A DNA stretch of 64,000 nucleotides, taken from the NCBI GenBank assembly GCA_020831775.1, contig JAFIFZ010000035.1, positions 1-64,000 of the forward strand, written 5' to 3'. Below are positions 44,304 to 58,198 of this stretch, piece by piece; position 1 is the first letter of the stretch; each line of letters opens with the position of its first letter. The notes under the pieces are model-generated. The model did no database searches. It worked only from the letters and a program-made list of their open reading frames with translations, and had not been told where the DNA came from. The position numbers and the translations under genes were made by a program. This DNA comes from Phycisphaerales bacterium. GTDB taxonomy: Bacteria > Planctomycetota > Phycisphaerae > Phycisphaerales > UBA1924.

Positions 44304-44864
44304 ATGACCAACCCCTGGCACGATGTCACGCCCGCGACCGACAAGCATGCCCTGCCCGAGCATGTCAAGGCGATCATCGAGATCCCCAAAGGCTCGAGCA
44401 ACAAGTACGAGCTGGACAAGAAGTCCGGCATGCTCAAGCTCGACCGGGTGCTCTCCTCGGCGGTGTACTACCCGGCTAACTACGGGTTTGTCCCCCAGAC
44501 AATGGCCGAGGACGACGACCCGCTGGACATCCTGGTCTTCTGCGCCGAGAAGATCCCGGGCATGTGCGTCTGCGAGGCGCGGGTGGTCGGCCTGATGACG
44601 ATGGTCGACGACGGGCAGCCGGACCACAAGATCATCTCCGTGCTCGTCAACGACCCCGAGTACGCCGACTACAGCAAGGCGAGCAACTTCCCCGTCCACA
44701 CCTTCAAGATGCTCAAGCGGTTCTTCGAGGACTACAAGCAGCTCGAAGAGAAGCAGGTCGAGGTCGACGAGATCATGCCGGCCCAGGCGGCCTACGCCGT
44801 GATCGAGGACGCGCTGGCCCGCTACTGGCAGCTCCGCCAGCGGGGGGAGCTGGCGGGGCTGTGA
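44304..44864 (+). CDS. ppa: Inorganic pyrophosphatase
   Basis: A 186-residue soluble family I pyrophosphatase, driving biosynthesis by hydrolysing PPi. The metal-binding signature is DDDPLDILVF (about residues 71-80), with earlier EIPKGSSNKYELDKKSG and YPANYGFVPQT, and a later KILVLVNDPEY-like segment SVLVNDPEYADY. It is full length and starts at ATG 44304. The hpt gene follows after 50 bases. Confidence 0.96.
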   Translation: MTNPWHDVTPATDKHALPEHVKAIIEIPKGSSNKYELDKKSGMLKLDRVLSSAVYYPANYGFVPQTMAEDDDPLDILVFCAEKIPGMCVCEARVVGLMTMVDDGQPDHKIISVLVNDPEYADYSKASNFPVHTFKMLKRFFEDYKQLEEKQVEVDEIMPAQAAYAVIEDALARYWQLRQRGELAGL

Positions 44865-44914
44865 CAGGGACCGCCCGTGGGCCGGGGTGGTCTGTGCCGC
44901 CCTACGCTCGCCCC

Positions 44915-45508
44915 ATGTTCCGGGATATCGACCGGGTGCTGATCGATCGCGAGCGGATCGCAAGCCGTGTGCACGACATGGCGGCCGATCTCGCCGACGA
45001 TCTCGTGCGCGACATGGGGCCGGCTGGGCCTGACGGCGAGCCGGGGCAGGTGGTCTTCATCCCGATCCTGACCGGAGCGATCGTCTTCGTGGCCGACCTG
45101 ATCCGGCACCTGCCCTTCAAGCTGAGGCTGGAGCTCGTGGCGATCTCCAGCTACCCCGGGCGTTCGATGACCTCGCGCGGGGCGGCGATGCGGTCGGCCC
45201 TGCCCGACAACCTCGGCGGGCGCCATGTGGTCATCGTCGACGACATCCTCGACTCGGGGCGGACGCTCGCGCTGATCACCTCGCTGGTGCGTGAGCAGTC
45301 GCCCGCGAGCGTGCGGACCTGCGTGCTTCTGGACAAGAAAGTCCGCAGAGCTGAGGCGATCACCCCGGACTACGCGGGCTTCGAGATCCCCGACGAGTTC
45401 GTTGTCGGATACGGGCTCGACTACGACGGGTACTACCGCAACCACCCCGACATCGCGGTGCTCAGGCCCGACGCGATCTCGCCCAAAGGCGCCGGGGGCG
45501 GGGCGTGA
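44915..45508 (+). CDS. hpt: Hypoxanthine phosphoribosyltransferase
   Basis: A 197-residue purine-salvage enzyme that makes IMP or GMP from free bases and PRPP. The PRPP-binding loop is VVIVDDILDSGRTL (about residues 107-120), and the purine end shows PDYAGFEIPDEFVVGYGLDYD. The ATG at 44915 gives an N-terminus typical for the family (MFRDIDRVLID). Its TGA overlaps the GTG of coaE by four bases. Confidence 0.95.
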   Translation: MFRDIDRVLIDRERIASRVHDMAADLADDLVRDMGPAGPDGEPGQVVFIPILTGAIVFVADLIRHLPFKLRLELVAISSYPGRSMTSRGAAMRSALPDNLGGRHVVIVDDILDSGRTLALITSLVREQSPASVRTCVLLDKKVRRAEAITPDYAGFEIPDEFVVGYGLDYDGYYRNHPDIAVLRPDAISPKGAGGGA

Positions 45509-46113
45509 CGCCCGTCATCGGCCTGGCCGGGGGGATCGGCAGCGGCAAGAGCACCGTGGCGCGTGCGTTCGCCGAGCTCGGGTGCCTCGTACTCGATTCC
45601 GACGCGGAGGCGAAGCAAGCCCTGCAGCGGCCCGAGGTCCGCGACGAGCTTGTCGGTTGGTGGGGGCCGGGCGTGCTCGATGAGTCGGGCGCGATCGATC
45701 GGAGGCGTGTGGCGCAGATCGTCTTCGCCGATGCCGCCGAACGCCGGCGCTTGGAGGGGCTGATCCATCCCCTGGTCAAGAAGAGCCGCCAGGAGGCGAT
45801 CGGGTTGGCCCGGGGGAAACCCGGGGTGGTGATCGACGCGCCGCTGCTATTCGAGGCGGGGCTGGAGGGCGAGTGCGACGAGGTCGTCTTTGTCGAGGCG
45901 TCGCGGGCGACGAGGCTGGAGCGGGTGCTCCGGACGCGGGGGTGGGACGAAGAGGAGTTCGACCGGCGCGAGGCGGCCCAGATGCCGCTGGAAGAAAAGC
46001 GCCGCAGGTGCCGTTTTGTGATCCAGAACGAGGACGACGGGCCGCGGGTCGAGGAGGCCCGGGCGGTCCTCGAAGCGATCCGAGAGGGATCAGCGGGCGG
46101 GTCGGGGGCGTAG
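45505..46113 (+). CDS. coaE: Dephospho-CoA kinase
   Basis: A 202-residue P-loop kinase, the last step of coenzyme A synthesis. The Walker A motif is GGIGSGKST (residues 9-17). The lid and substrate regions show LDSDAEAKQALQ, HPLVKKSRQEAI, and VIDAPLLFEAGLEGECDEVVFV. The GTG start overlaps the hpt stop (GTGA), so the two are translationally coupled. Confidence 0.95.
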   Translation: MTPVIGLAGGIGSGKSTVARAFAELGCLVLDSDAEAKQALQRPEVRDELVGWWGPGVLDESGAIDRRRVAQIVFADAAERRRLEGLIHPLVKKSRQEAIGLARGKPGVVIDAPLLFEAGLEGECDEVVFVEASRATRLERVLRTRGWDEEEFDRREAAQMPLEEKRRRCRFVIQNEDDGPRVEEARAVLEAIREGSAGGSGA

Positions 46114-46458
46114 GGCGAACCCGTGCCTGTCGGCTGGGTTGGGCCCGGGGTTGTTTGACCGGGCGTGGGCGGGGTACAATGCAGCGTCGAAGCCGTGGGG
46201 CCTCCATGCCCCGCGGGTGACCCTCGCCATAGTTTTCCTCCCCGAGCGTGTTTGTGACCTGAATGCAGGTCATCCGGTTCGTCTGCAAGGCTGTCCGGGT
46301 CCGCGCGTGCGGAGGGCACGATCTCCGGCCATTTCAGCGGCAGCGTTTTCAGTCGCACGGTCGGGAGGATCCGAATCTGAGCCGCAGAACGGGCCAAGGC
46401 CGGCCCGGTGCGCCCCTGTTTTCAGTTCAGAACAAGCAAAGAGAAGAGCGACCGGCAC
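46114..46458 (+). other. Long leader region of rho
   Basis: No gene is called in these 345 bases. A candidate promoter lies at 46151-46180, so the rho message would have a leader of about 270 bases. Within it is a small hairpin, GACCTG (46256-46261) pairing with CAGGTC (46266-46271), and a GC-rich inverted repeat around GGGCCAAGGCCGGCCC near 46395. Rho genes in several bacteria are autoregulated through their leaders; this one could be, but no specific site can be named. Confidence 0.5.
46151..46180 (+). promoter_or_regulatory. Possible rho promoter
   Basis: TTGTTT (46151-46156) and TACAAT (46175-46180) are separated by 18 bases. The -10 match is good and the -35 match moderate. Confidence 0.4.
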
Positions 46459-48237
46459 ATGGCCAGATCGAGCAAAGCCGTTGATGAAGAGCGCCGTGAC
46501 GAGGACGGCGGCGGGACGAAAGCGCCCGCGAAACGCAAGACGCGTTCGCGCAAGGCCCCGGCCCAATCGGAGGGATCGACCGTGAGCACCGGCGAACAGC
46601 AGGCCAAGTCCGAGCCCCGCAACGAGCCCAAGGCCCCCGACGCGCCCAAGGAGGCGAAAGCGCCCGAGCAGCCCAGGGAGCAGAAGCCCTCCGGCGACGA
46701 CTCCCGCGGCTCGGGCAACGGCTCCGGCCAGAACAACGACCACAAGCGCCAGGACCAGAACCAGCGCAGCAACCAGCAGGACCAGAACGATCGCGGCGGC
46801 CGCCGCAAGCGCAAGAAGCGCAAGGGTGGCAGCGGCGGAGGTGGCGGCGGGGGACAGGGCGGCCACCGTCCCTCCGACAGGCCCGACCACCACCTGCCCA
46901 GCGACGAGGAGTTGGAGCGCGAAGCCGCGGAACTCGAGCGCATCGTCGCCAAGAGCGGGTACCAGGAGGCCAAGGACGCGCTGACGATCACGCAACTGCA
47001 GCGGATGGAGATGGAGGAGGTCTTCAAGGTTGCCGAGAGCGAGGGCCTCGAAGAGTTCCACCAGATCCCTAAGCAGGACCTGATCTTCAAAATCCTCAAG
47101 GCCCGCGCCGCCAAGCAGGGCCTGATGTTCGGCGAGGGCACGCTCGAGGTAATGCCCGACGGCTTCGGCTTCCTGCGTTCGCCCGAGCAGAGCTATCTCC
47201 CCGGCCCCGACGACATCTATGTCAGCCCGAGCCAGATCCGGCGCTTCGGCCTGCGCAAGGGGATGATCGTCCGCGGCGCGGTCCGCCCGCCCAAGGAGAG
47301 CGAGCGGTACTTCGCGCTGCTCCGTGTCGAGAAGGTCAACGGGCGCGAGCCGTCGGCGATCAACAGCCTGATCAACTTCGAGGACCTGACTCCGCTGCAC
47401 CCCGAGGAGCGGTTCGTTCTCGAGACGACGCCCGAGCGGTTCGAGTCGCGCGTGATCGACCTGGTCACGCCGGTCGGCAAGGGTCAGCGTGCGTTGATCG
47501 TCGCCCCGCCCCGAACCGGCAAGACTGTCATCCTCCAGCAGATGACCCAGGCGATCAACAAGAACTACCCCGAGGTCAAGATCTTCGTCTTGCTCGTCGA
47601 CGAGCGCCCCGAGGAGGTGACCGACTTCCGTCGCAACAGCGGCAAGGATGTCGAGGTCGTCGCCAGCACCTTCGACGAGCAGTCGTCCCGCCATGTGCAG
47701 ATCGCCGATGTGATCATCGAGAAGGCCAAGCGGATGGTCGAGTTCGGCGACGATGTGGTCATCTTCCTCGACTCGATCACGCGTCTGGCCCGGGCCTACA
47801 ACTCCGAGATGCCCCACTCGGGCAAGATCATGACCGGCGGCATCGACGCCAACGCCCTGCAGAAGCCCAAGAAGTTCTTCGGCGCCGCACGCGCCATCGA
47901 GAACGGCGGCAGCCTCACCATCATCGGCACGGCGCTGGTCGACACCGGCTCGAAGATGGACGAGGTCATCTTCGAGGAGTTCAAGGGCACCGGCAACAGC
48001 GAGCTGCACCTTGACCGGCGTCTGAGCGACAAGCGCATCTACCCCGCGATCGACATCGCCTCCAGCGGCACCCGGCGCGAGGAGCTCCTGCTGGATCCCA
48101 AGGAGCTCGAGTTGGTCTACCGCCTGCGCAAGATTCTGTCGGACATGAACCCGGTCGAGGCGATGGAACTGCTCAAGAGCCGCCTGAAGAAGTCCAAGAG
48201 CAACGCCGAGTTCCTCGTGACGATGGCGATGGGCTGA
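46459..48237 (+). CDS. rho: Transcription termination factor Rho with long low-complexity N-terminus
   Basis: A 592-residue hexameric RNA helicase that ends transcription. Residues about 1-155 are a low-complexity region rich in Lys, Arg, Gln, Asn, Asp and Gly, ending in a glycine run. A Rho N-terminal helical domain follows at about 175-215, then the cold-shock-like RNA-binding domain ([14 protein letters not shown]). The ATPase domain has Walker A APPRTGKT (349-356) and [16 protein letters not shown] with the Walker B Asp. Typical Rho is about 420 residues. The ATG at 46459 gives [11 protein letters not shown]; a purine-rich AGAGAAGAG lies upstream. Large inserts near the N-terminus are known in high-GC phyla. 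Confidence 0.95.
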
Positions 48238-48302: not shown

Positions 48303-48320
48303 TGAAGGGAGCCGGCCGGC

Positions 48321-48668
48321 GTGCACCTCGATCGACGGGCGACAAGACTGCTTGTGGTGCTCTCGGCGACGCCCTGGGCGGCGGGGTGGACCGTGCTGGG
48401 TCTCTGGATCCTGCTGGTCGCGCCGTCCTCGGTGCAGATCGGCTCGTTCGAGTACACGATGCCCGGGATGCTCCGGTTCACGGCCGGGCTGACCTCGCTC
48501 GCGGCGGGACAGCTTGTGTTTATGTGCTTTGTGTGCGACCGCCTGTTCCCGCAGGCGCACCGTCCGGCCGTCTGGACCGCCCAGCTCACGGCCAGCGGCG
48601 CGATCATCCTCGGCGCGGTCGCGTTGTGTTTCCAGGTTTTATGGATGTACGCGGGGGGTGTGGCTTGA
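48321..48668 (+). CDS. Small three-TM membrane protein, unknown
   Basis: A 115-residue membrane protein with three or four hydrophobic helices (about residues 8-34, 46-72 and 85-112). I recognise no family. The start is GTG at 48321. Its TGA overlaps a TTG that starts the next gene, so the two are coupled. The arrangement suggests that it works with the 825-residue exported protein and the flippase-like protein that follow. Confidence 0.65.
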   Translation: MHLDRRATRLLVVLSATPWAAGWTVLGLWILLVAPSSVQIGSFEYTMPGMLRFTAGLTSLAAGQLVFMCFVCDRLFPQAHRPAVWTAQLTASGAIILGAVALCFQVLWMYAGGVA

Positions 48669-51142
48669 ACCGCCTGTTGTCCGGATTTGTTGCGGCGGTC
48701 TCTGTCCTTGTTCTGACGGGCGTCGGGATCGCGGCGTCCTCGGGAGAGGTCGCTGCGAGGGAAGCGGTGCGCATGGCGCTCCTGGACCTCCGCCTGCACC
48801 CCGAGCCGTCCGACGAAGACTTCGAGATCGCCGACATCGTCTTTTCGATCGCGCAGGAGCGGCTGCCCGCCGACGCGGAGCTCGCCCGGCGTCGCGTCGA
48901 GGCCGCCTACCGGCGGGGCGACGCCGACGCGCTCCGCGAGGCCACCCGCGTGCTGGTCCGCATCGACCCCGGCGACACGGTCGCCACGCTCCGCCTGATC
49001 TCGATGCGGATCGGCGATCTGCAGACCGCCGAGCGGCGGCTCGCGGCCTACCAGCGTTACCTTGACGAGGGCGCGTCGGTGCTCGACGCGTCGGTGCGCA
49101 GCCGCCTTGCGCTCGACGCGGCGCTCCTCGCCAGGGAGCAGGCCGACAATCGGCGGTTCACCCAGTTGCTGATCCAGGCGAGCCGGCTGGACCCGACCAA
49201 CAAGGAAGCGGCCGCGGTCGCGGCGACGGTCTTCGCAGAGCGATTCCCCGACGACCCCGGGGGTGCGATGGAGCTCTCGGCGAACCTGCTGCTGTCGGAT
49301 CCGCACGATCCCAATGTGCACTTCTCGATCGCGCGCCAGTGCGCCGAGCAGGGGCTGTTCGACCAGGCCGAGCGGTTCCACGCGATGGCCCGGCGGCTGA
49401 TCGAGGCGGACGCGGGGCGGCTGCCCTTCGGACGAAACGCCGAGCGGATCGTGCTCACCTGGCACCGGCGCGGGCCGCAGGCCCCGATCGCCGAGCTCGG
49501 CGAGTCGCTGGCGCAGAACCGCTACCGGGCGCAGCAGCGGATCGAAGCGCTGCGCGAGCGGGGCCTCCCGACCGCCGACGAGCTGCAGCCCGAGGATGTG
49601 CGCCTCGCCCTGCCCTTGGAGCGGATCCGGGTGCTGGCGGCGATGGCGGCGGGCGACACCGACGAGCTGGACCGCTCGCTCGCCGACGCCAGCGCGACCG
49701 TCAACACCTTCCTCGGTGAGCTGGGCTCGCCGGGCAACCGCCCCGCGGGCTTGTCAGAGCGAGAGGCCCAGAGCCAGACGCTCGAACTGGGGCGCGAGCT
49801 TCTGGCGATGCACTACTGGGCCGGACGCCATGAGGCGGAAGACATCCGGAGGTGGTCGCAGACGCCGCTCCTTCGCGGGGATCGCCCCGACGAGGTGCTG
49901 GTCGCCTGGCGGAGCGCGCTGCGTGGCGAAGACGGCGCCGTTGAAAAGCTCGAAGAGTTCGCCGAGAGTGACAGCCGCGCCTTGGGGGCGCTCTCGACCC
50001 TGGCGATCGCCTCGGGCCAGCAGGAGCGTGCGCTGTCGAGCCTGCGCGAACTGACCAAGGCCGATCCGTACAGCCCGGTGAGCGCGTGGGCTCGGAGCGT
50101 GGCGATGTCGATCGCCGACGAGGACCCGGCGCGGACCGAGCACACGCGGGACATGGAGCGGTTCGTCCGGTCCATCCCCTCATGGCTGGACCGCATGACC
50201 GAGTCGCCCAACGCGTTCATGTCGCTGGAAGCGAGGTTCGAGGGTTCGCGTCTTGACCCGCTCGAACCGCTGCGGCTGGTGCTGCGTCTACGCAACATCG
50301 CGCCGGTGCCGCTGGGCGTCGGGTCGGGGCGGCCGATCAGCGGGCGTTTCATCGTGATGCCGACGATCGACATCGGGACGCGGGGTCGCCAGCTCCGCGT
50401 GCTTCCCGAGGTGTTCGAGCTGGACCGACGCCTGCGCCTTCGTCCTCGCGAGTCGGTCGAGGTGACAATCTGGGCGGACGCGGGGTACACGGGCTGGCTC
50501 GGCTCGATCCACCTCTCGGAGATGCAGCGGATCAGGGCGCGGGCGGTGCAGGGCTTCCGTTTCATGGGCGGGATGCCTGTCGCGGGGTCGCTGGCTCTGA
50601 CTTCAGAGACCGACGCGATCTCCCGTCGCCCGCTCTCTTTGGCGAGGGCGGAGTTCTCCGAGCTGATCGAGGCGATCGCCGAGTGCACCGACGAGACCGC
50701 TCCGACGGTCGGCGCCGCGGTGCGTGCCCGGCTGCTGACCGATATCGAGAGCCTGCAGCTCAGCGAGGCCGAACGCCAGAACCTCGCCGGCGCCTTGCTG
50801 CGCCGGATCAACGCGCTCGGCCCGGACGGGCTGCTGGCGTGGACGGTGATGCTGCCGCACGGCAGGATGGCGCCCGAGCTCGCGCCGCTGGACAACGCGC
50901 TCCGGGCGAGGCTCTCGGGCGATGACGATCCGTTGCTGGTCGCGGTGGCGATGGTCTCGCGCGGGGCGACACGCGACGACCGGCTGCTCGACCCCGAGCG
51001 GGAGTGGGACGATCCGCGCCTCGGACGGCTCGCCTCGCTGGTGCGTGAGCGGCTTGACGACGAGCAACTCGCGACGCTCGCGCGGATTTCCCGTCCGCGC
51101 GACCTGATCGGCGAGTACGGCACGATCGGGGACGCGAGGTGA
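48665..51142 (+). CDS. Large exported TPR-like protein, unknown
   Basis: An 825-residue protein with an N-terminal signal-like helix (NRLLSGFVAAVSVLVLTGVG). Residues about 40-320 are helical repeats of TPR type (VRIDPGDTVATLRLISMR; LIQASRLDPTNKEAAAVAA). The middle is helical too, and residues about 500-660 look beta-rich with a possible Ig-like region (LEPLRLVLRLRNIAPVPLGVG). No enzyme motif is seen. The start is TTG at 48665, overlapping the previous stop (TTGA); no in-frame ATG or GTG lies close by. Its own TGA overlaps the GTG of the next gene. Confidence 0.75.
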   Translation: MNRLLSGFVAAVSVLVLTGVGIAASSGEVAAREAVRMALLDLRLHPEPSDEDFEIADIVFSIAQERLPADAELARRRVEAAYRRGDADALREATRVLVRIDPGDTVATLRLISMRIGDLQTAERRLAAYQRYLDEGASVLDASVRSRLALDAALLAREQADNRRFTQLLIQASRLDPTNKEAAAVAATVFAERFPDDPGGAMELSANLLLSDPHDPNVHFSIARQCAEQGLFDQAERFHAMARRLIEADAGRLPFGRNAERIVLTWHRRGPQAPIAELGESLAQNRYRAQQRIEALRERGLPTADELQPEDVRLALPLERIRVLAAMAAGDTDELDRSLADASATVNTFLGELGSPGNRPAGLSEREAQSQTLELGRELLAMHYWAGRHEAEDIRRWSQTPLLRGDRPDEVLVAWRSALRGEDGAVEKLEEFAESDSRALGALSTLAIASGQQERALSSLRELTKADPYSPVSAWARSVAMSIADEDPARTEHTRDMERFVRSIPSWLDRMTESPNAFMSLEARFEGSRLDPLEPLRLVLRLRNIAPVPLGVGSGRPISGRFIVMPTIDIGTRGRQLRVLPEVFELDRRLRLRPRESVEVTIWADAGYTGWLGSIHLSEMQRIRARAVQGFRFMGGMPVAGSLALTSETDAISRRPLSLARAEFSELIEAIAECTDETAPTVGAAVRARLLTDIESLQLSEAERQNLAGALLRRINALGPDGLLAWTVMLPHGRMAPELAPLDNALRARLSGDDDPLLVAVAMVSRGATRDDRLLDPEREWDDPRLGRLASLVRERLDDEQLATLARISRPRDLIGEYGTIGDAR

Positions 51143-52101
51143 AGAAGGTCGCGGCGATCGTCCTCTGGGCGGTCGGCCTGGCGCTGCTGGTCGCCGCTTG
51201 TTTCGAGGCGTCGCGGCACGCCGAAGCGATCCGCGCGGCGTGGGGGGCGATGAGCGACGCGCCGCTCTGGCTGATCGCGTGTGTCGTGATCGGCCCGCTT
51301 GCGAACATGTTTCTCACCGGGGCCGCGTTCTGCGTGCTCAACCGGCACTACGCCAAGGTCGGGCTGGGCGAGAATGTCGTGCTCATCATGAGCGCGAACC
51401 TGCTGAACTACCTGCCGCTTCGGCCGGGCATGCTCGGGCGTGTGGCGTTCCACCGCAAGGTCCACGGCATCCGCGTGACCGACTCGGCCAAGGTGCTCGC
51501 GGGCTCGATGATCGGGTCGTCGGTCGGGGTGGCCGGGCTCATCGTCGCGGCGGCCGCGACACTCGTGACGAACGACGGACGCGTCGGGCTGCTGGTGGGG
51601 GCGGGGATCTGCCTGGGGCTGTTTGTCGGCGGGCAGGCGGCGCGGGTCGCCGGGCGGCCCTGGTGGAGGCTCGTGACCGCCTCGGGCATCAAGTTCCTGG
51701 ATTCGGCGGTCTGGGCGGGGCGGTACGCGGCGGTCTTCGCGCTCGTCGGCTCGCCGATCAATGCGGGGGCGGCGATCGCCCTGGCGCTGGTCGGGCAGGT
51801 CACGATGCTCGTGCCGCTGTTCGGCAACGGGCTCGGCCTGCGCGAGTGGTCGATCGCGCTGGTGGCGCCCGTCCTGGCGATCGGGGCGATGGACGGCTCG
51901 GTCGTCGATCCGACGGCGCTTGCGGCGGATCTGCTCAACCGGGGCGTCGAGGTGCTGGTGGCCCTCCCGGCCGGGGTGCTGGCGACCCTGCTTGCGGGGG
52001 CGTGGCTGAGGCGGTCGATCGCCAAGGGACGAACCTTGCCCGACGAATCAGACCAGCCGAACGAGGCCGATCGCCCCGGTGCCTCCGCCGATGCTCCCTG
52101 A
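51139..52101 (+). CDS. Lysylphosphatidylglycerol synthase-like membrane protein
   Basis: A 320-residue polytopic membrane protein resembling the transmembrane (flippase) half of lysylphosphatidylglycerol synthases (LPG_synthase_TM, UPF0104-type). Eight hydrophobic segments are visible. The conserved loop reads MSANLLNYLPLRPGMLGR (about residues 84-101), close to the family's N-x-x-x-P-x-x-x-G motif. There is no C-terminal aminoacyl-transferase domain, so lipid or polyprenyl-linked substrate flipping is more likely than lysine transfer. The GTG start overlaps the stop of the exported TPR-like protein (GTGA). Confidence 0.78.
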   Translation: MKKVAAIVLWAVGLALLVAACFEASRHAEAIRAAWGAMSDAPLWLIACVVIGPLANMFLTGAAFCVLNRHYAKVGLGENVVLIMSANLLNYLPLRPGMLGRVAFHRKVHGIRVTDSAKVLAGSMIGSSVGVAGLIVAAAATLVTNDGRVGLLVGAGICLGLFVGGQAARVAGRPWWRLVTASGIKFLDSAVWAGRYAAVFALVGSPINAGAAIALALVGQVTMLVPLFGNGLGLREWSIALVAPVLAIGAMDGSVVDPTALAADLLNRGVEVLVALPAGVLATLLAGAWLRRSIAKGRTLPDESDQPNEADRPGASADAP

Positions 52102-52274: not shown

Positions 52275-53387
52275 ATGGTCAACAAGATCGAACAGGACCA
52301 CCAGCGCTTCAGGCAGATCGTCAAGGGGAAGATCCGCAAGGAGCTGCGCCGCTTCCTCTCTCGCGGCGAGCTGATCGGGCGTGAGGGCAAGCGGGTGGTC
52401 TCCATCCCCCTGCACGACATCGACATCCCGACCTTCCGCTACGGGGACAACTCGTCGGGCGTCGGCATGGGCGAGGGGGAGGAGGGCGAGAGCGTCGCCC
52501 AGCCCGGCGACGAGAACGCCGGGGGCGAGGAAGAGGGCCGGCACATCACCGAGGTGGATGTCACGCTCGATGAGCTCGCCGACCTGCTGGCCGAGGAGCT
52601 GGAGCTTCCCCGGATCAAGCCGCGGGGCGAGAGCCGCGTGACGACTATCCGCGATAAGTACTCGGGCATCCGCCCCGAGGGCCCCGCCTCGCTGCGCCAC
52701 TTCAAGAGGACTTATCGCGAGGCGCTCAAGCGTCAGCTCATGGCCGGGCTGTACGACCCCGACGACCCGGTGATCGTGCCGATCAAGCGGGACTTCCGCT
52801 ACCGGAGCTGGAACGAGGTCAAGAAGCCGCAGAGCAACGCGGCGATCATCTACATGATGGATGTCTCCGGCTCGATGGGCGACGAGCAGAAGGAGATCGT
52901 GCGTCTGACGGCGTTCTGGATCGACACGTGGCTGCGCCGGAACTACGAGGGGATCGAGAGCCGTTACATCGTGCACGATGTCCGTGCGGCCGAGGTCGAC
53001 AAGAAGACCTTCTTCAGCCTGCGCGAGGACGGGGGCACGCGGATCAGCTCCGCGTTCGACTTGTGCAAGAAGATGCTCGACGAGCACTACGACCCCAACC
53101 AGTGGAACATCTACCTGTTCCACTTCTCAGACGGCGACAACTCGTCGGAGGCGGACAACCGGCTCTGCATCGACCTGCTCGACAAAAAGCTGCTGCCCAG
53201 CTGCAACATGTTCGGCTACTGCCAGGTCGCTTCGGCCTACGGCTCGGGCAACTTCATCAATGTCCTGCGCGAGGCCTTCCCCGACGGCGTGCCCGACGAG
53301 GACGGGCCGAAGCTCATCATGAGCAAGGTCAACGACCGGGACGACATCCACGAATCGCTGCGGACCTTCTTCAAGCAGGGGCGGTGA
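52275..53387 (+). CDS. DUF444 family protein (YeaH/YhbH type)
   Basis: A 370-residue protein of the DUF444 family. It has the N-terminal basic helix (QDHQRFRQIVKGKIRKELR), a glycine/acidic linker (about residues 70-95), and a von Willebrand factor A-like half with the metal-binding loop MDVSGSMGDEQ (D-x-S-x-S, about residues 195-205). In many bacteria the gene lies with PrkA kinase and SpoVR/YcgB genes in a stress or stationary-phase operon. Neither partner is nearby here. It contains one of the four ACGT sites (52926). Confidence 0.88.
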   Translation: MVNKIEQDHQRFRQIVKGKIRKELRRFLSRGELIGREGKRVVSIPLHDIDIPTFRYGDNSSGVGMGEGEEGESVAQPGDENAGGEEEGRHITEVDVTLDELADLLAEELELPRIKPRGESRVTTIRDKYSGIRPEGPASLRHFKRTYREALKRQLMAGLYDPDDPVIVPIKRDFRYRSWNEVKKPQSNAAIIYMMDVSGSMGDEQKEIVRLTAFWIDTWLRRNYEGIESRYIVHDVRAAEVDKKTFFSLREDGGTRISSAFDLCKKMLDEHYDPNQWNIYLFHFSDGDNSSEADNRLCIDLLDKKLLPSCNMFGYCQVASAYGSGNFINVLREAFPDGVPDEDGPKLIMSKVNDRDDIHESLRTFFKQGR

Positions 53388-53614: not shown

Positions 53615-54256
53615 GTGATCCCCCTCTTCGTCGGTTACGCCCTGCTGGTCTGGTGGCCGGCGTGCGTCTGGCGTCGGCGTCCCTGGGGATTTCTGGCGGT
53701 GGTTGTCGGCTCTGTGGTGCTGTTCGGGGCGATTGTGCTGCACTCGTACATCGGGGCGGTGCTCAAGCAGCGGGGGATCGACATCTACACGCCGGTGCTG
53801 CAGCACCTGCTCTGGCCCTACATGCTGATGGTGGGGGGGATCGGGCTCTTCATCGCCTCTATGCCCAGGCGGTACGCCGAGGGCAGGTGCCACGCCTGCG
53901 GGTACGACCTGGCCGGGGCCGCGCCCGACGACCGTTGCTGCCCCGAGTGCGGCAAGGAGATCCCGGTCCAGACCAAGAGCAGCCGCTGCGCAATCTGCGG
54001 CAGCTCTGCGCTGAGCCCCTATGTCATGGAGGGCGTCTGCCCCGACTGCGGCTCGGAGTTTCGCCAGCCCCCCTCCAGCGAGCGGGTGAGGGCGAGGCAG
54101 GAAGCGATGTGGGGCCGGGCGCCGGACGAGCCGCTGCTTGAGCGGGGGCGAGAGGGCTCGTTCTCAGCCCCGCACGAGCCGCCACATGGCGCCGAGGAAG
54201 AGGATCAGGAGCGGGAGCCCGCCGATCATCGCCCAGCCCAGAGCGCGGCTTTCTGA
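53615..54256 (+). CDS. Membrane protein with two zinc ribbons
   Basis: A 213-residue protein. Two or three hydrophobic helices (about residues 3-35 and 66-86) anchor it, then two zinc-ribbon motifs follow: CHACGYDL with CCPECGKE, and CAICGSS with CPDCGSE. Zinc-ribbon membrane proteins of this look are common in planctomycetes and mostly uncharacterised. The GTG start at 53615 has AGGAG about ten bases upstream. The last 30 residues, acidic and proline-rich, are encoded antisense to the 3' end of the GldG-like gene (93-bp tail-to-tail overlap). Confidence 0.78.
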   Translation: MIPLFVGYALLVWWPACVWRRRPWGFLAVVVGSVVLFGAIVLHSYIGAVLKQRGIDIYTPVLQHLLWPYMLMVGGIGLFIASMPRRYAEGRCHACGYDLAGAAPDDRCCPECGKEIPVQTKSSRCAICGSSALSPYVMEGVCPDCGSEFRQPPSSERVRARQEAMWGRAPDEPLLERGREGSFSAPHEPPHGAEEEDQEREPADHRPAQSAAF

Positions 54257-56353
54257 TTCTTCCAGACGCGTGATCCGCGGCGTCGGGCGAGAGCCCGGGC
54301 CGGGGGCGATCAGTTCATCCAAGCCGGCGAGCCAGTAGATCGAAGCTTCGAAGAGTTCGGCGTTGCCGGGGTTGGCAGCGATGCGTCGGCCGTCGACGAC
54401 TTCCGTGGCGAGTGTCGCGTTGTCGAAGAACCACCCGTTGGCGCCGACCGCGATCACACGCTGTCTTCCCGCTCGGTTGTCGAACGGGCGCGAGACCGCC
54501 GTAGCGAAGGTCCATGGGCCGCCGGTGCGTCCCGGCTCGGTTCTGTCGGTGTCGACCCAGGCGTCGAAGCGGGCGGAAGGGTCGTCTGCGTCGCGGTGGC
54601 GGAAGAAACGCACCCAGTCGTCACGCTGTCGCCCAGCGCCCCGCAGCGTGAGCAGGGGCGTACGCGTGATCGTGTCGTCGTTCTCGTCTGTGAGGGCGAT
54701 CGGTGAGGCGAAGCGGAGGGTGACCGGCAGCCCCGCGAGGGCCTGGGCGACCGTGTGCGGGTCGTCGGCTGACTGGTCGACGCTCGGGCGGACGGAGGCC
54801 TCGACCATCAGGTCGCCCGAGACCACGCGCTCGACGAGGACCGGCGCGTCGGATTGGACGCGCAGGCCGAGGGCTTGGAGGGGTTCTGTGGCCTCGTCGC
54901 GGAGGCCGCGCCCGCCGATCGCGGCTGGCGCGTCGAAGGGGGCGGCGCAGACGAGCAGGGCGTCGCCTTGTTCGAGCACGCGACCGACGGCCTCGCCCAG
55001 CGCCCGGTTGCGGGTCGGACCGTCGGGGCCGGAGGCGAACCGCCCGCCGGGATCGGTGCCGATCGAGACGAAGACGACCGGGCGGCGGCGTTGCGGGTCG
55101 ATCGAGAGCAGGCTCGGGGGCGAGGGGTCGTCGGTGGGGTTCCACTCGACGAACGAGATGCGTCGAAGTTCCATCCGCTGACGGAGCGTCCGCATGACGC
55201 CGGTTTCGAGCAGGCTTTGCGGGTTGGGGTTGATGAAGACGACGATCGGCGCGTCGCCGCCCGCCAGCGAGAGCAGGCCGGCGATGAAGGCTTCTTCGGC
55301 TCTGCGCCGCAGGTCGGCGTCGCGCCCCCGCTCGGGGGGCGGGAAGAGGGCGTCGAACGAGATGGCGGTGACGCCCCGCCCGGGCGGGCCGGCGATGATG
55401 GCCGCGTCCTGGCTGAGCAGCAGGCGGGCGATGCGGACGGTGTCGGGGACGCGGAGGCGTTCGACCTGGTCGAGCCTGCGGGCGAGATCATCGCGGAGGC
55501 GTGCGGTGTCGCCCGCGGCGGCTCGGAGCTCGCTGGAGGCCGCGCCGGGAACGCCTGCGCCCGCGGCCTGCTCGAAGACGCGCCGGAACCGGGGGAGCTG
55601 CGACTCGACCGCCTGCAGCACGGACCGGACCGAGTCGCGGGCGCGGTCGATCCCGGGGACGCCGGGGATGCCGAGCTGTTCGGTCAGGGCCTCTGCGGCA
55701 TTGGCCGAGGCAGTGCGGAGCGACTCGGCGTCGCGTTCGAGGATCGACGCCCAGGATTCGAACTGGCGGGCGGGGCCATCTTCGGCCTCTGTAGGCGGAA
55801 AGGCGTCGGCGGCGCGGCGAAGGCGAGCGCCGATCGCGGCCAGCCGATCGCCCGAACGCTCGATCGCTTCGATCGCCTCGGCGAGGGTCCGGCGCTGCTG
55901 CTCGACGGCCTCGGCGTCTCTCGTCGCCAGGCGCGACAGGAGCTCGGCGAAGCGGGCCTGGTCGGCGCTGCGCGTCGTGTCGAGCAGCGTGACGCGGAGG
56001 CGGGGCGAGGCCTCATCGAAGCGGCGGGCGACATCAACGACGCCCTGGACGGCTTGCGGCGGGTGGCCCAGAAGCTGGGCGGTGTCGCCCGACCATGGCC
56101 CCGCGAGGACGAGTTCCCACCCGTCTTCGAGCCCGTTGATGACGCGGGTGGTCCTCGCCGAGAGGGTCTGCTCGCCCCGGGCGGTGACATCGATCGCGAA
56201 GTTGTGACGCTCGGCGAGGATGTTCACCAGGACGATCGAACCGAAGATCGAGAGCGTGAGGGCGAGCGTGAGCAGGGCCGCGCCGAAGCGGCGGAGCTTC
56301 GGTGAGCGGGAGGGTGAGCGGTCGGCGGGAGTTGAGGGTAAAGGCGCGTTCAT
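54164..56353 (-). CDS. GldG-like ABC transporter auxiliary protein
   Basis: A 729-residue protein with an N-terminal helix (about residues 22-47), a large exported portion and a C-terminal helix (LGWAMIGGLPLLILFLGAMW). It resembles the GldG/ABC_transp_aux group, in which a soluble domain of GATase-like fold faces the periplasm (FINPNPQSLLETG). It is encoded with an ATPase and a permease, and its ATG at 56353 overlaps the permease stop (ATGA), with AGGAGG five to six bases upstream. A coiled, Arg/Ala/Glu-rich stretch (about residues 125-260) interrupts the domain. Substrate unknown. Confidence 0.8.
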   Translation of the reverse strand: MNAPLPSTPADRSPSRSPKLRRFGAALLTLALTLSIFGSIVLVNILAERHNFAIDVTARGEQTLSARTTRVINGLEDGWELVLAGPWSGDTAQLLGHPPQAVQGVVDVARRFDEASPRLRVTLLDTTRSADQARFAELLSRLATRDAEAVEQQRRTLAEAIEAIERSGDRLAAIGARLRRAADAFPPTEAEDGPARQFESWASILERDAESLRTASANAAEALTEQLGIPGVPGIDRARDSVRSVLQAVESQLPRFRRVFEQAAGAGVPGAASSELRAAAGDTARLRDDLARRLDQVERLRVPDTVRIARLLLSQDAAIIAGPPGRGVTAISFDALFPPPERGRDADLRRRAEEAFIAGLLSLAGGDAPIVVFINPNPQSLLETGVMRTLRQRMELRRISFVEWNPTDDPSPPSLLSIDPQRRRPVVFVSIGTDPGGRFASGPDGPTRNRALGEAVGRVLEQGDALLVCAAPFDAPAAIGGRGLRDEATEPLQALGLRVQSDAPVLVERVVSGDLMVEASVRPSVDQSADDPHTVAQALAGLPVTLRFASPIALTDENDDTITRTPLLTLRGAGRQRDDWVRFFRHRDADDPSARFDAWVDTDRTEPGRTGGPWTFATAVSRPFDNRAGRQRVIAVGANGWFFDNATLATEVVDGRRIAANPGNAELFEASIYWLAGLDELIAPGPGSRPTPRITRLEESESRALGWAMIGGLPLLILFLGAMWRLVRG

Positions 56354-57108
56354 CGCCACCTCCTCGACGCGTAGGCGGCCCAGGAGAGCACGACGAAGCC
56401 GGCGCTGAGCGAGAGGAAGAACACGACATGGCGGAGTTGGACGCCGCCGCCGGCGAAGTCGTCGATCCGCTGGGGGATGCGGAGCCTCGCGAGCGTGTCG
56501 CGGACCCAGGCGGGTGCGCCCGGGGGCAGGGCGTCGGCGAGGAGCCCCGGGCCCAGCAGCAGCGCCAGGAGGGCGAGGAAGGTGCCCAGGAAGGCGAGCG
56601 TCTGGCTGGAGGTCAGGCAGGAGGCGAGCAGCCCGATCGCGAGGTAGAGGCTCCCGACCAGGAGCAGGCTGAGGTAGCCCGCGACGATCGGCCCGGCCTC
56701 GGGCGTCGGGTCGCTCCGCCAGAAGAGCACGCCGACGAAGACGAGCGTCGGCAGCAGCATCGCGCCGAGGAAGGCGACAGCGCCGAGGTACTTGCCCAGG
56801 ACGACGGAGATGTCGCGGGCGGGCATGGTCATCAGGGATTCGATGGTGCCCGAGCGGAGCTCGTCGCTGACCAGCCGCATCGAGACCGCCGGGGCGACGA
56901 CGATGAGCAGGGGGGCGCAGAAGGCGAAGAAGATCCGCATCGTCGCGGCCTGGCCGGGGACGAGGGCGAATTGGGTGAACAGAGCCGCGGTGAGGAAGAC
57001 GAACAGGGCGATCACCACCCAGCCGACGGGCAGGCGGAACATCGAGCCGAGCTCGCGCGAGGCGAAGACGAGGCTCTGGCGGATGGGACCGGAGTTCGCG
57101 CCGGTCAT
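56350..57108 (-). CDS. ABC transporter permease, GldF-like
   Basis: A 252-residue ABC-2-type permease with six hydrophobic segments. The segment SMRLVSDELRSGTIESLMTMPARD (about residues 77-100) is the coupling region typical of this group. It is the membrane partner of the ATPase and GldG-like proteins. The start at 57108 overlaps the stop of the ATPase gene (ATGA). Confidence 0.86.
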   Translation of the reverse strand: MTGANSGPIRQSLVFASRELGSMFRLPVGWVVIALFVFLTAALFTQFALVPGQAATMRIFFAFCAPLLIVVAPAVSMRLVSDELRSGTIESLMTMPARDISVVLGKYLGAVAFLGAMLLPTLVFVGVLFWRSDPTPEAGPIVAGYLSLLLVGSLYLAIGLLASCLTSSQTLAFLGTFLALLALLLGPGLLADALPPGAPAWVRDTLARLRIPQRIDDFAGGGVQLRHVVFFLSLSAGFVVLSWAAYASRRWR

Positions 57109-58067
57109 GGCCCGGCCTCCCGGCGTTCGTCCGCGTCGGTCTCGATCGCGTGCATGAAGACGGCTTCGAGCGTCGGGCGTTCGGTTTCGAGGCGTCGGAT
57201 CTCGACGCCGGCGCCGGCGAGCGCCCGCCCGATCGATTCGGCGAGGGTTTCTGCGCCCGGCGCCGGTGTCGCCCTGGCGTGCACCCAGCCCTCGCGGGTC
57301 TCGCATGTGAGGGTATGGACGCCCGAGACCGACTTGATCAGCGATTCGGGATCGACGCGTGGGCTGGCGCGGCACTCGACGATGCACGGCGACCCGCCCG
57401 CCGCCAGGGCGACGAGGTCGTTGGGCGAGCCGTCGGCCCTGACCCTGCCCCCCGCGATGACGATCACGCGGTCGCAGGTGCGTTCGACCTCGGCGAGGAT
57501 GTGCGAGCAGACGAGCAGGGTTCGGTCGTGGCCGAGTTCGCGGACCAGGGCCCGGGCGGCTCTGATCTGCGTCGGGTCGAGGCCGTTGGTCGGCTCGTCG
57601 AGGATGAGCACCGGGGGGTCGTGGAGCATGGCGGCTGCGAGGCCGACGCGCTGGCGGAACCCCTTGCTGAGCTGGCCGATTCTGCGCTTCCGGACGGGCT
57701 GGAGCTCGCAGCGGGCGACCACCTCGGCGATGCGTCGTTTTCGGTCGGCGCGGGTCATCGAGAAGACGCGGGCTCTGAAGCGGAGGTAGTCCAGGGTCCG
57801 CATTTCCGGGTATATCGGGGCAGATTCAGGGAGATACCCGATCCGTTTGCGTGCGGCGAGCGAATCCGAGAGCATGTCGAGCTCGCCTACTCTGATCTGG
57901 CCCCGGTCGGGGGGGAGGTACCCGGTGATCATGCGGATGGTCGTGCTCTTGCCGGCCCCGTTGGGGCCGAGCAGACCGACGACCTGGGGGTGTCCCAGCT
58001 CGAAGGAGACGCCTCTGACGGCGTGCACCGGACCGAACGACTTGTGCACTTCTCGGACCGAAATCAT
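57105..58067 (-). CDS. ABC transporter ATP-binding protein, GldA-like
   Basis: A 320-residue ATPase. Walker A is GPNGAGKST (about residues 35-43), the signature motif is LSKGFRQR, and Walker B is PPVLILDEPTNGLDP. The remaining 80 residues after the ATPase are the ABC-2-associated C-terminal domain. I chose the ATG at 58067 (MISVREVH), where homology begins, over an upstream start at 58133. It is first in the three-gene ABC operon. Its start is divergent from the PAS-GAF-receiver gene, 131 bases away. Confidence 0.92.
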   Translation of the reverse strand: MISVREVHKSFGPVHAVRGVSFELGHPQVVGLLGPNGAGKSTTIRMITGYLPPDRGQIRVGELDMLSDSLAARKRIGYLPESAPIYPEMRTLDYLRFRARVFSMTRADRKRRIAEVVARCELQPVRKRRIGQLSKGFRQRVGLAAAMLHDPPVLILDEPTNGLDPTQIRAARALVRELGHDRTLLVCSHILAEVERTCDRVIVIAGGRVRADGSPNDLVALAAGGSPCIVECRASPRVDPESLIKSVSGVHTLTCETREGWVHARATPAPGAETLAESIGRALAGAGVEIRRLETERPTLEAVFMHAIETDADERREAGP

Positions 58068-58198
58068 GGGCTCTTGGAAGGAATCGATCGGGTCGAACCG
58101 ATGTTTGGCATGAACGGGGCGTGGTGTTTCCATTCGACACGCCCATGGTTGGTGCGGTATCCTGCCCTGCTCCCCCCGCTGAGGAGTATGGCGGTGTT

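Follow-up and report, generated by a model that had tools for sequence, protein, structure and literature searches.

Three overlapping genes on one strand of a Phycisphaerales genome raise the question of whether their products work together and, if they do, in what. They lie in a 64,000-nt stretch of contig JAFIFZ010000035.1, which was analyzed as a whole and is called the window below, and they encode a small membrane protein, an exported protein with tetratricopeptide repeats (TPR) and a flippase-like membrane protein. Knowledge of how lipids pass the inner membrane and the periplasm of double-membraned bacteria is incomplete, and little is understood of planctomycete envelopes. We propose that the three proteins probably cooperate in the cell envelope, in a form in which the TPR protein is the constant member and the flippase a later recruit.

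Gene arrangement and selection

The initial annotation had described three genes joined by TTGA and GTGA overlaps, and the coordinates of the three plus-strand open reading frames (ORFs) as well as the 4-nt overlap at each of the two junctions were confirmed (Table 1). A longer mechanical ORF for the TPR protein, starting at GTG 48386, crosses the small gene in another frame; homology and the signal peptide both favour TTG 48665 as the start. Compared with the close relative L108, the small, TPR and flippase-like genes had dN/dS values of 0.156, 0.130 and 0.182, respectively (rho, 0.075). Values of 0.13-0.18 point to purifying selection, and all three genes are therefore real and selected. Scans of the three proteins against Pfam, NCBIfam and PADLOC gave no informative match, and a collection scan with the TPR protein found two near-identical public loci and no others, both in Phycisphaerales metagenome-assembled genomes.

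Table 1. Features of the three-gene locus (positions in the window).
Feature	Position	Strand	Basis
Probable ribosome-binding site of the small gene, AAGGGAG, 9 nt before GTG 48321	48305..48311	+	sequence
Small membrane protein, 115 aa, family A2	GTG 48321..TGA 48668	+	ORF, homology
TTGA shared by the stop of the small gene and the start of the TPR gene	48665..48668	+	sequence
Exported TPR protein, 825 aa	TTG 48665..TGA 51142	+	ORF, family homology
Hydrophobic N-terminus of the TPR protein, residues 4-22, probable signal peptide	48665..48736	+	sequence
TPR-type helical superhelix, about residues 67-485	48863..50119	+	family profiles, model
Probable Ig-like beta-sandwich domain of the TPR protein, residues 512-662	50198..50650	+	weak evidence
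GTGA shared by the stop of the TPR gene and the start of the flippase-like gene	51139..51142	+	sequence
Flippase-like membrane protein of 320 aa, a diverged LPG_synthase_TM (PF03706) member lacking a synthase domain	GTG 51139..52101	+	relatives, profile comparison
Motif NYLPLRPGMLGR, residues 90-101, G97 and R101 invariant; first hairpin-like motif position	51406..51441	+	family alignment
Motif PLFGNGLGLREW, residues 226-237, G233, R235 and E236 invariant; second hairpin-like motif position	51814..51849	+	family alignment

The genes upstream of the trio, ppa-hpt-coaE-rho (44304-48237), keep their order in many genomes of the same family (f1). The small gene begins 83 bp after rho, and co-transcription with rho is possible. 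Directly downstream lies a gene for a DUF444/YhbH-type protein (52275-53387), which is kept in about half of the f1 loci. Convergent with the neighbours of the trio, the minus strand encodes a 731-aa GldG-type-like ABC accessory protein (54164-56359) that recurs in relatives; its label was given from reading the sequence, a family match being absent. It is followed by an ABC ATPase-like ORF (57105-58133).

The exported TPR protein

The TPR_19 model was matched by 22 of 50 relatives of the second protein (best 2.5e-9), and the family profile matched designed TPR proteins with values down to 3.7e-15, while the window protein alone stayed below threshold (0.0053). A hydrophobic N-terminal stretch was present in 56/59 relatives. 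By its family profiles the second protein is a tetratricopeptide repeat protein, and the N-terminus predicts its export, which agrees with its first description as exported and TPR-like. In its C-terminal half a domain of some 150 residues is conserved and resembles an Ig-like sandwich, an assignment drawn solely from weak matches to designed Ig proteins and to Ig-like and Fn3-like Pfam models. The AlphaFold2 model, built from near-identical rows only, was partly usable, with a pLDDT of about 50-79 in parts, and a fold search with it returned generic TPR matches only.

The protein was found in 93 of 120 genomes of the class Phycisphaerae, in class members only when a sample of the phylum was searched, and by single-sequence search in 57 of 61 related genomes. 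Outside the order its gene is accompanied by 2TM-TPR proteins, a PDZ protein, an HtrA-like protease or housekeeping genes. An exported HEAT-repeat protein of about 355-390 aa is encoded divergently beside the TPR gene in many Phycisphaerales (L068:5226-6392, L082:5327-6394, L087:9716-10852) and is possibly an older partner of the TPR protein. Families f5 and f6 have lptF/lptG-like genes, close to the TPR gene in L098 and L101 and close to unlinked flippase copies in L170 and L181; a link to LptF/LptG was considered and set aside, as these cases were too sparse to use.

The flippase-like protein

The third protein had been annotated as a relative of the LPG-synthase-type flippases. Searched alone, it matched nothing in Pfam at E values up to 1. 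LPG_synthase_TM (PF03706) was matched by 28 of 38 members of its family (best 1.8e-10), and the linked flippases of four genomes (G010, G012, G037 and G042) passed the curated PF03706 cut-off when their pieces were summed. Profile-profile comparison with other PF03706-type proteins of these genomes resulted in a probability of 99.7% over 275 columns, with both motifs aligned. From these comparisons the assignment holds: the protein is, as judged by family profiles, a diverged PF03706 member. Seven to eight hydrophobic segments are typical of the family, and the hairpin-like motifs occupy the places expected in the eight-helix flippase domain. E236 and R268 are invariant with a spacing of 32, compared with a spacing of 24 between E295 and R319, the conserved salt-bridge pair of PaMprF, the two pairs not being aligned directly. 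A fused lysyl/alanyl-PG synthase domain is absent, as the 320-aa protein stops after the membrane domain. PDB profile searches gave nothing useful, and the AlphaFold2 model, again from near-identical rows only, had a pLDDT of 36.6 and was too weak to test the fold.

Relatives were found by single-sequence search in 51 of 61 related genomes. A second PF03706 protein of the same genome (L160:4258-6268, contig C74) immediately follows a GT2-like glycosyltransferase, which is the arrangement usual for polyprenyl-sugar genes.

The small membrane protein

The small protein has three hydrophobic segments (residues 25-43, 53-71 and 89-107), predicted to be transmembrane, and three such segments were also present in 27 of 31 aligned members of family A2, in which W19, G27, G56 and G63 are conserved. 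Single-sequence search recovered it from 19 of 61 related genomes and a profile raised the count to 33 loci, or 31 without the two near-identical public loci; in 31 loci its gene was found preceding the TPR gene. It was detected neither in family f2, where the flippase is kept, nor in some f1 loci. Pfam and NCBIfam scans placed it in no known family. Kinship with YbhQ (PF11076) was rejected: two weak matches were followed by none over the cut-off in 41 genomes, and none of the YbhQ profile matches listed lay at the trio locus. In another family, a 94-aa membrane protein overlaps the start of the TPR gene behind an HtrA-like PDZ protease (L139:9327-9611), with no detectable kinship to the small protein of the window.

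Linkage and evolutionary history

By its own test, the initial annotation would have been refuted if the three genes did not stay together in related genomes; in f1 and two sister families they do. The flippase gene was adjacent to the TPR gene in 32 of 39 contexts of family f1 (7 without) and in 6/6 contexts of the sister families f2 and f3, counted on fetched regions from which loci cut by contig ends were left out. In three other families of the order (f4, f5 and f6), no flippase gene adjoins the TPR gene. The members of the trio keep the same order across dozens of genera. Two of the f2 and f3 contexts depart from this: the order is reversed in L083, with the flippase ahead of the TPR gene, and the two genes stand tail to tail in L086, a region obtained via its flippase with the TPR gene then found next door.

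Two chromosomal settings occur within f1, and TPR-flippase linkage is present in both. One places the trio behind ppa-hpt-coaE-rho and before DUF444, the other beside genes for OppA/OppB and the exported HEAT-repeat protein, frequently followed by a purM-like gene (Opp and purM labels given from reading sequences). The linkage also occurs without neighbouring rho and DUF444 (L047, L057, L068, L073, L081-L085). An exact 4-nt overlap was found at 22 of 33 same-strand TPR-flippase junctions and at 18 of 31 small-TPR junctions, with a 1-nt overlap in 2 more of the latter; starts were picked nearest to the junction, which favours overlaps, although an in-frame start is still needed there. Exact 4-nt overlaps recur in most genera although flippase identity is only about 25-43%. 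Because all three genes are under purifying selection, keep one order in dozens of genera and overlap recurrently, the arrangement goes beyond chance.

Several genomes have lost the flippase and retain the TPR and small proteins. For four genomes with no adjacent flippase (G006, G011, G018 and G033), single-sequence search found no relative elsewhere in the genome, and the family profile gave 63-86 bits, which is paralog level, or nothing, compared with over 300. In a TPR tree of 95 rows all flippase-linked genes fell into one clade of f1, f2 and f3 (SH-aLRT 81), with 4 changes of linkage state in total. Most simply, the flippase would have joined the TPR gene once, in the ancestor of the three families, and later been lost about three times; this direction comes from parsimony on a quick tree, which is not proof of it. 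In the flippase tree the linked proteins separated from the unlinked paralogs (99 SH-aLRT), with L173 dropped and L164, a 22%-filled fragment within the linked clade, ignored. With end branches of about 0.7 changes per column, the linked clade does not look like an artefact created by very close relatives.

The trio is thus not one indivisible unit: the class-wide TPR protein usually has no flippase beside it. The single complex of three that had been suggested at first is not supported in that form, given this distribution, the losses of the flippase where the other two genes stay, and the state of f4-f6.

Proposed function and alternatives

The reading that we prefer, and hold to be about an even call, is that a putative inner-membrane lipid flippase or scramblase of the MprF type is coupled to a TPR scaffold in the periplasm and to a membrane protein of three helices. 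The core of this envelope module would be the exported TPR protein, an old, Phycisphaerae-specific periplasmic scaffold. The small protein, its usual partner in the lineage, could be its anchor or its regulator. The flippase-like protein would move a lipid or lipid-linked precursor between the leaflets of the inner membrane by an MprF-type flippase/scramblase mechanism, and on the periplasmic side the TPR protein would receive or organize this lipid step. The 4-nt overlaps may couple translation and so keep the products in step. We infer export from the sequence, and likewise the membrane topology, the lipid transport activity, the substrate and the contact between TPR protein and flippase. 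That a stand-alone PF03706 member is held to an exported TPR protein suggests, by the logic of partner dependence (PMC11980842), that the TPR protein determines the place or the purpose of the lipid movement. As to the handling of lipids or polyprenyl-linked precursors that was proposed at the outset, membership of the flippase family is its one basis; evidence on the substrate was not found, and no substrate enzyme lies beside the trio. A bolder version, a Phycisphaerales-specific complex in which the flippase passes lipid to the large periplasmic TPR/Ig-like protein along a delivery route not described elsewhere, seems rather improbable to us.

Shared expression without contact is the strongest competitor; we hold it less probable than not, though nearly as likely as the coupled module. 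Here the TPR protein, together with the small protein, would have an older envelope role, and the flippase would be a later addition to the shared transcript, serving the same process or stress response. The occurrence of the TPR protein in 93/120 class genomes with other neighbours (PDZ, HtrA-like, HEAT and 2TM-TPR proteins) fits this account, as does a flippase gained once and lost about three times. Against it, the flippase in f1 either adjoins the TPR gene or is absent, and this holds across different chromosomal settings and gene orders; sharing a transcript would not usually require so much.

It is unlikely that the flippase-like protein moves a polyprenyl-linked sugar for a surface glycan, with the TPR protein belonging to the assembly or export system of that glycan. 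Unlinked paralogs of the order do lie directly behind a polyprenyl-phosphate-type GT2 glycosyltransferase, a label given from reading sequences (L105, L173 and L160, the last in the genome of the window), and archaeal family members have been tied to glycosylation (PMC5898192), but no glycosyltransferase or glycan gene was found to recur beside the linked clade. Chance packing of three unrelated genes in compact genomes can draw on the flanking rho and DUF444 genes, which are also often kept and indicate a generally conserved local order, yet is very improbable, since the TPR-flippase linkage persists away from both genes and the 4-nt overlaps persist despite low protein identity.

A class-wide TPR protein, predicted to be periplasmic, and a flippase apparently recruited once and probably coupled to it in translation offer a concrete gene pair to test.

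Comparison with known systems

No described system with this three-gene set was found in the open-licence literature, in keeping with the initial annotation, whose author knew of none. Periplasmic TPR scaffold proteins, of which P. aeruginosa LbcA is an example that turned up among many TPR fold matches, are likewise exported helical-repeat proteins; the match is generic to TPR folds, sequence kinship was not found, and the trio protein has an additional probable Ig-like domain. Further parallels are the stand-alone PF03706-type membrane proteins E. coli YbhN and P. aeruginosa GpgF, which, like the flippase of the window, are grouped with functionally linked genes (PMC11980842, PMC12713373). 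Those two adjoin lipid-making enzymes (cardiolipin synthesis; GpgS and GpgD), whereas the trio contains no lipid enzyme, and its small protein is not YbhQ. MprF-type domains transport lipids between leaflets. In vitro, the flippase domain of MprF is a promiscuous scramblase of lipids, its role has been proposed to depend on the partner, and stand-alone members exist (PMC11980842). With this domain (PF03706; COG0392/UPF0104) the window protein shares its sequence family, the aligned hairpin motifs and a pattern of polar E and R residues. It differs from MprF in having no fused aminoacyl-PG synthase domain and in its partners, which are the exported TPR protein and the small membrane protein.
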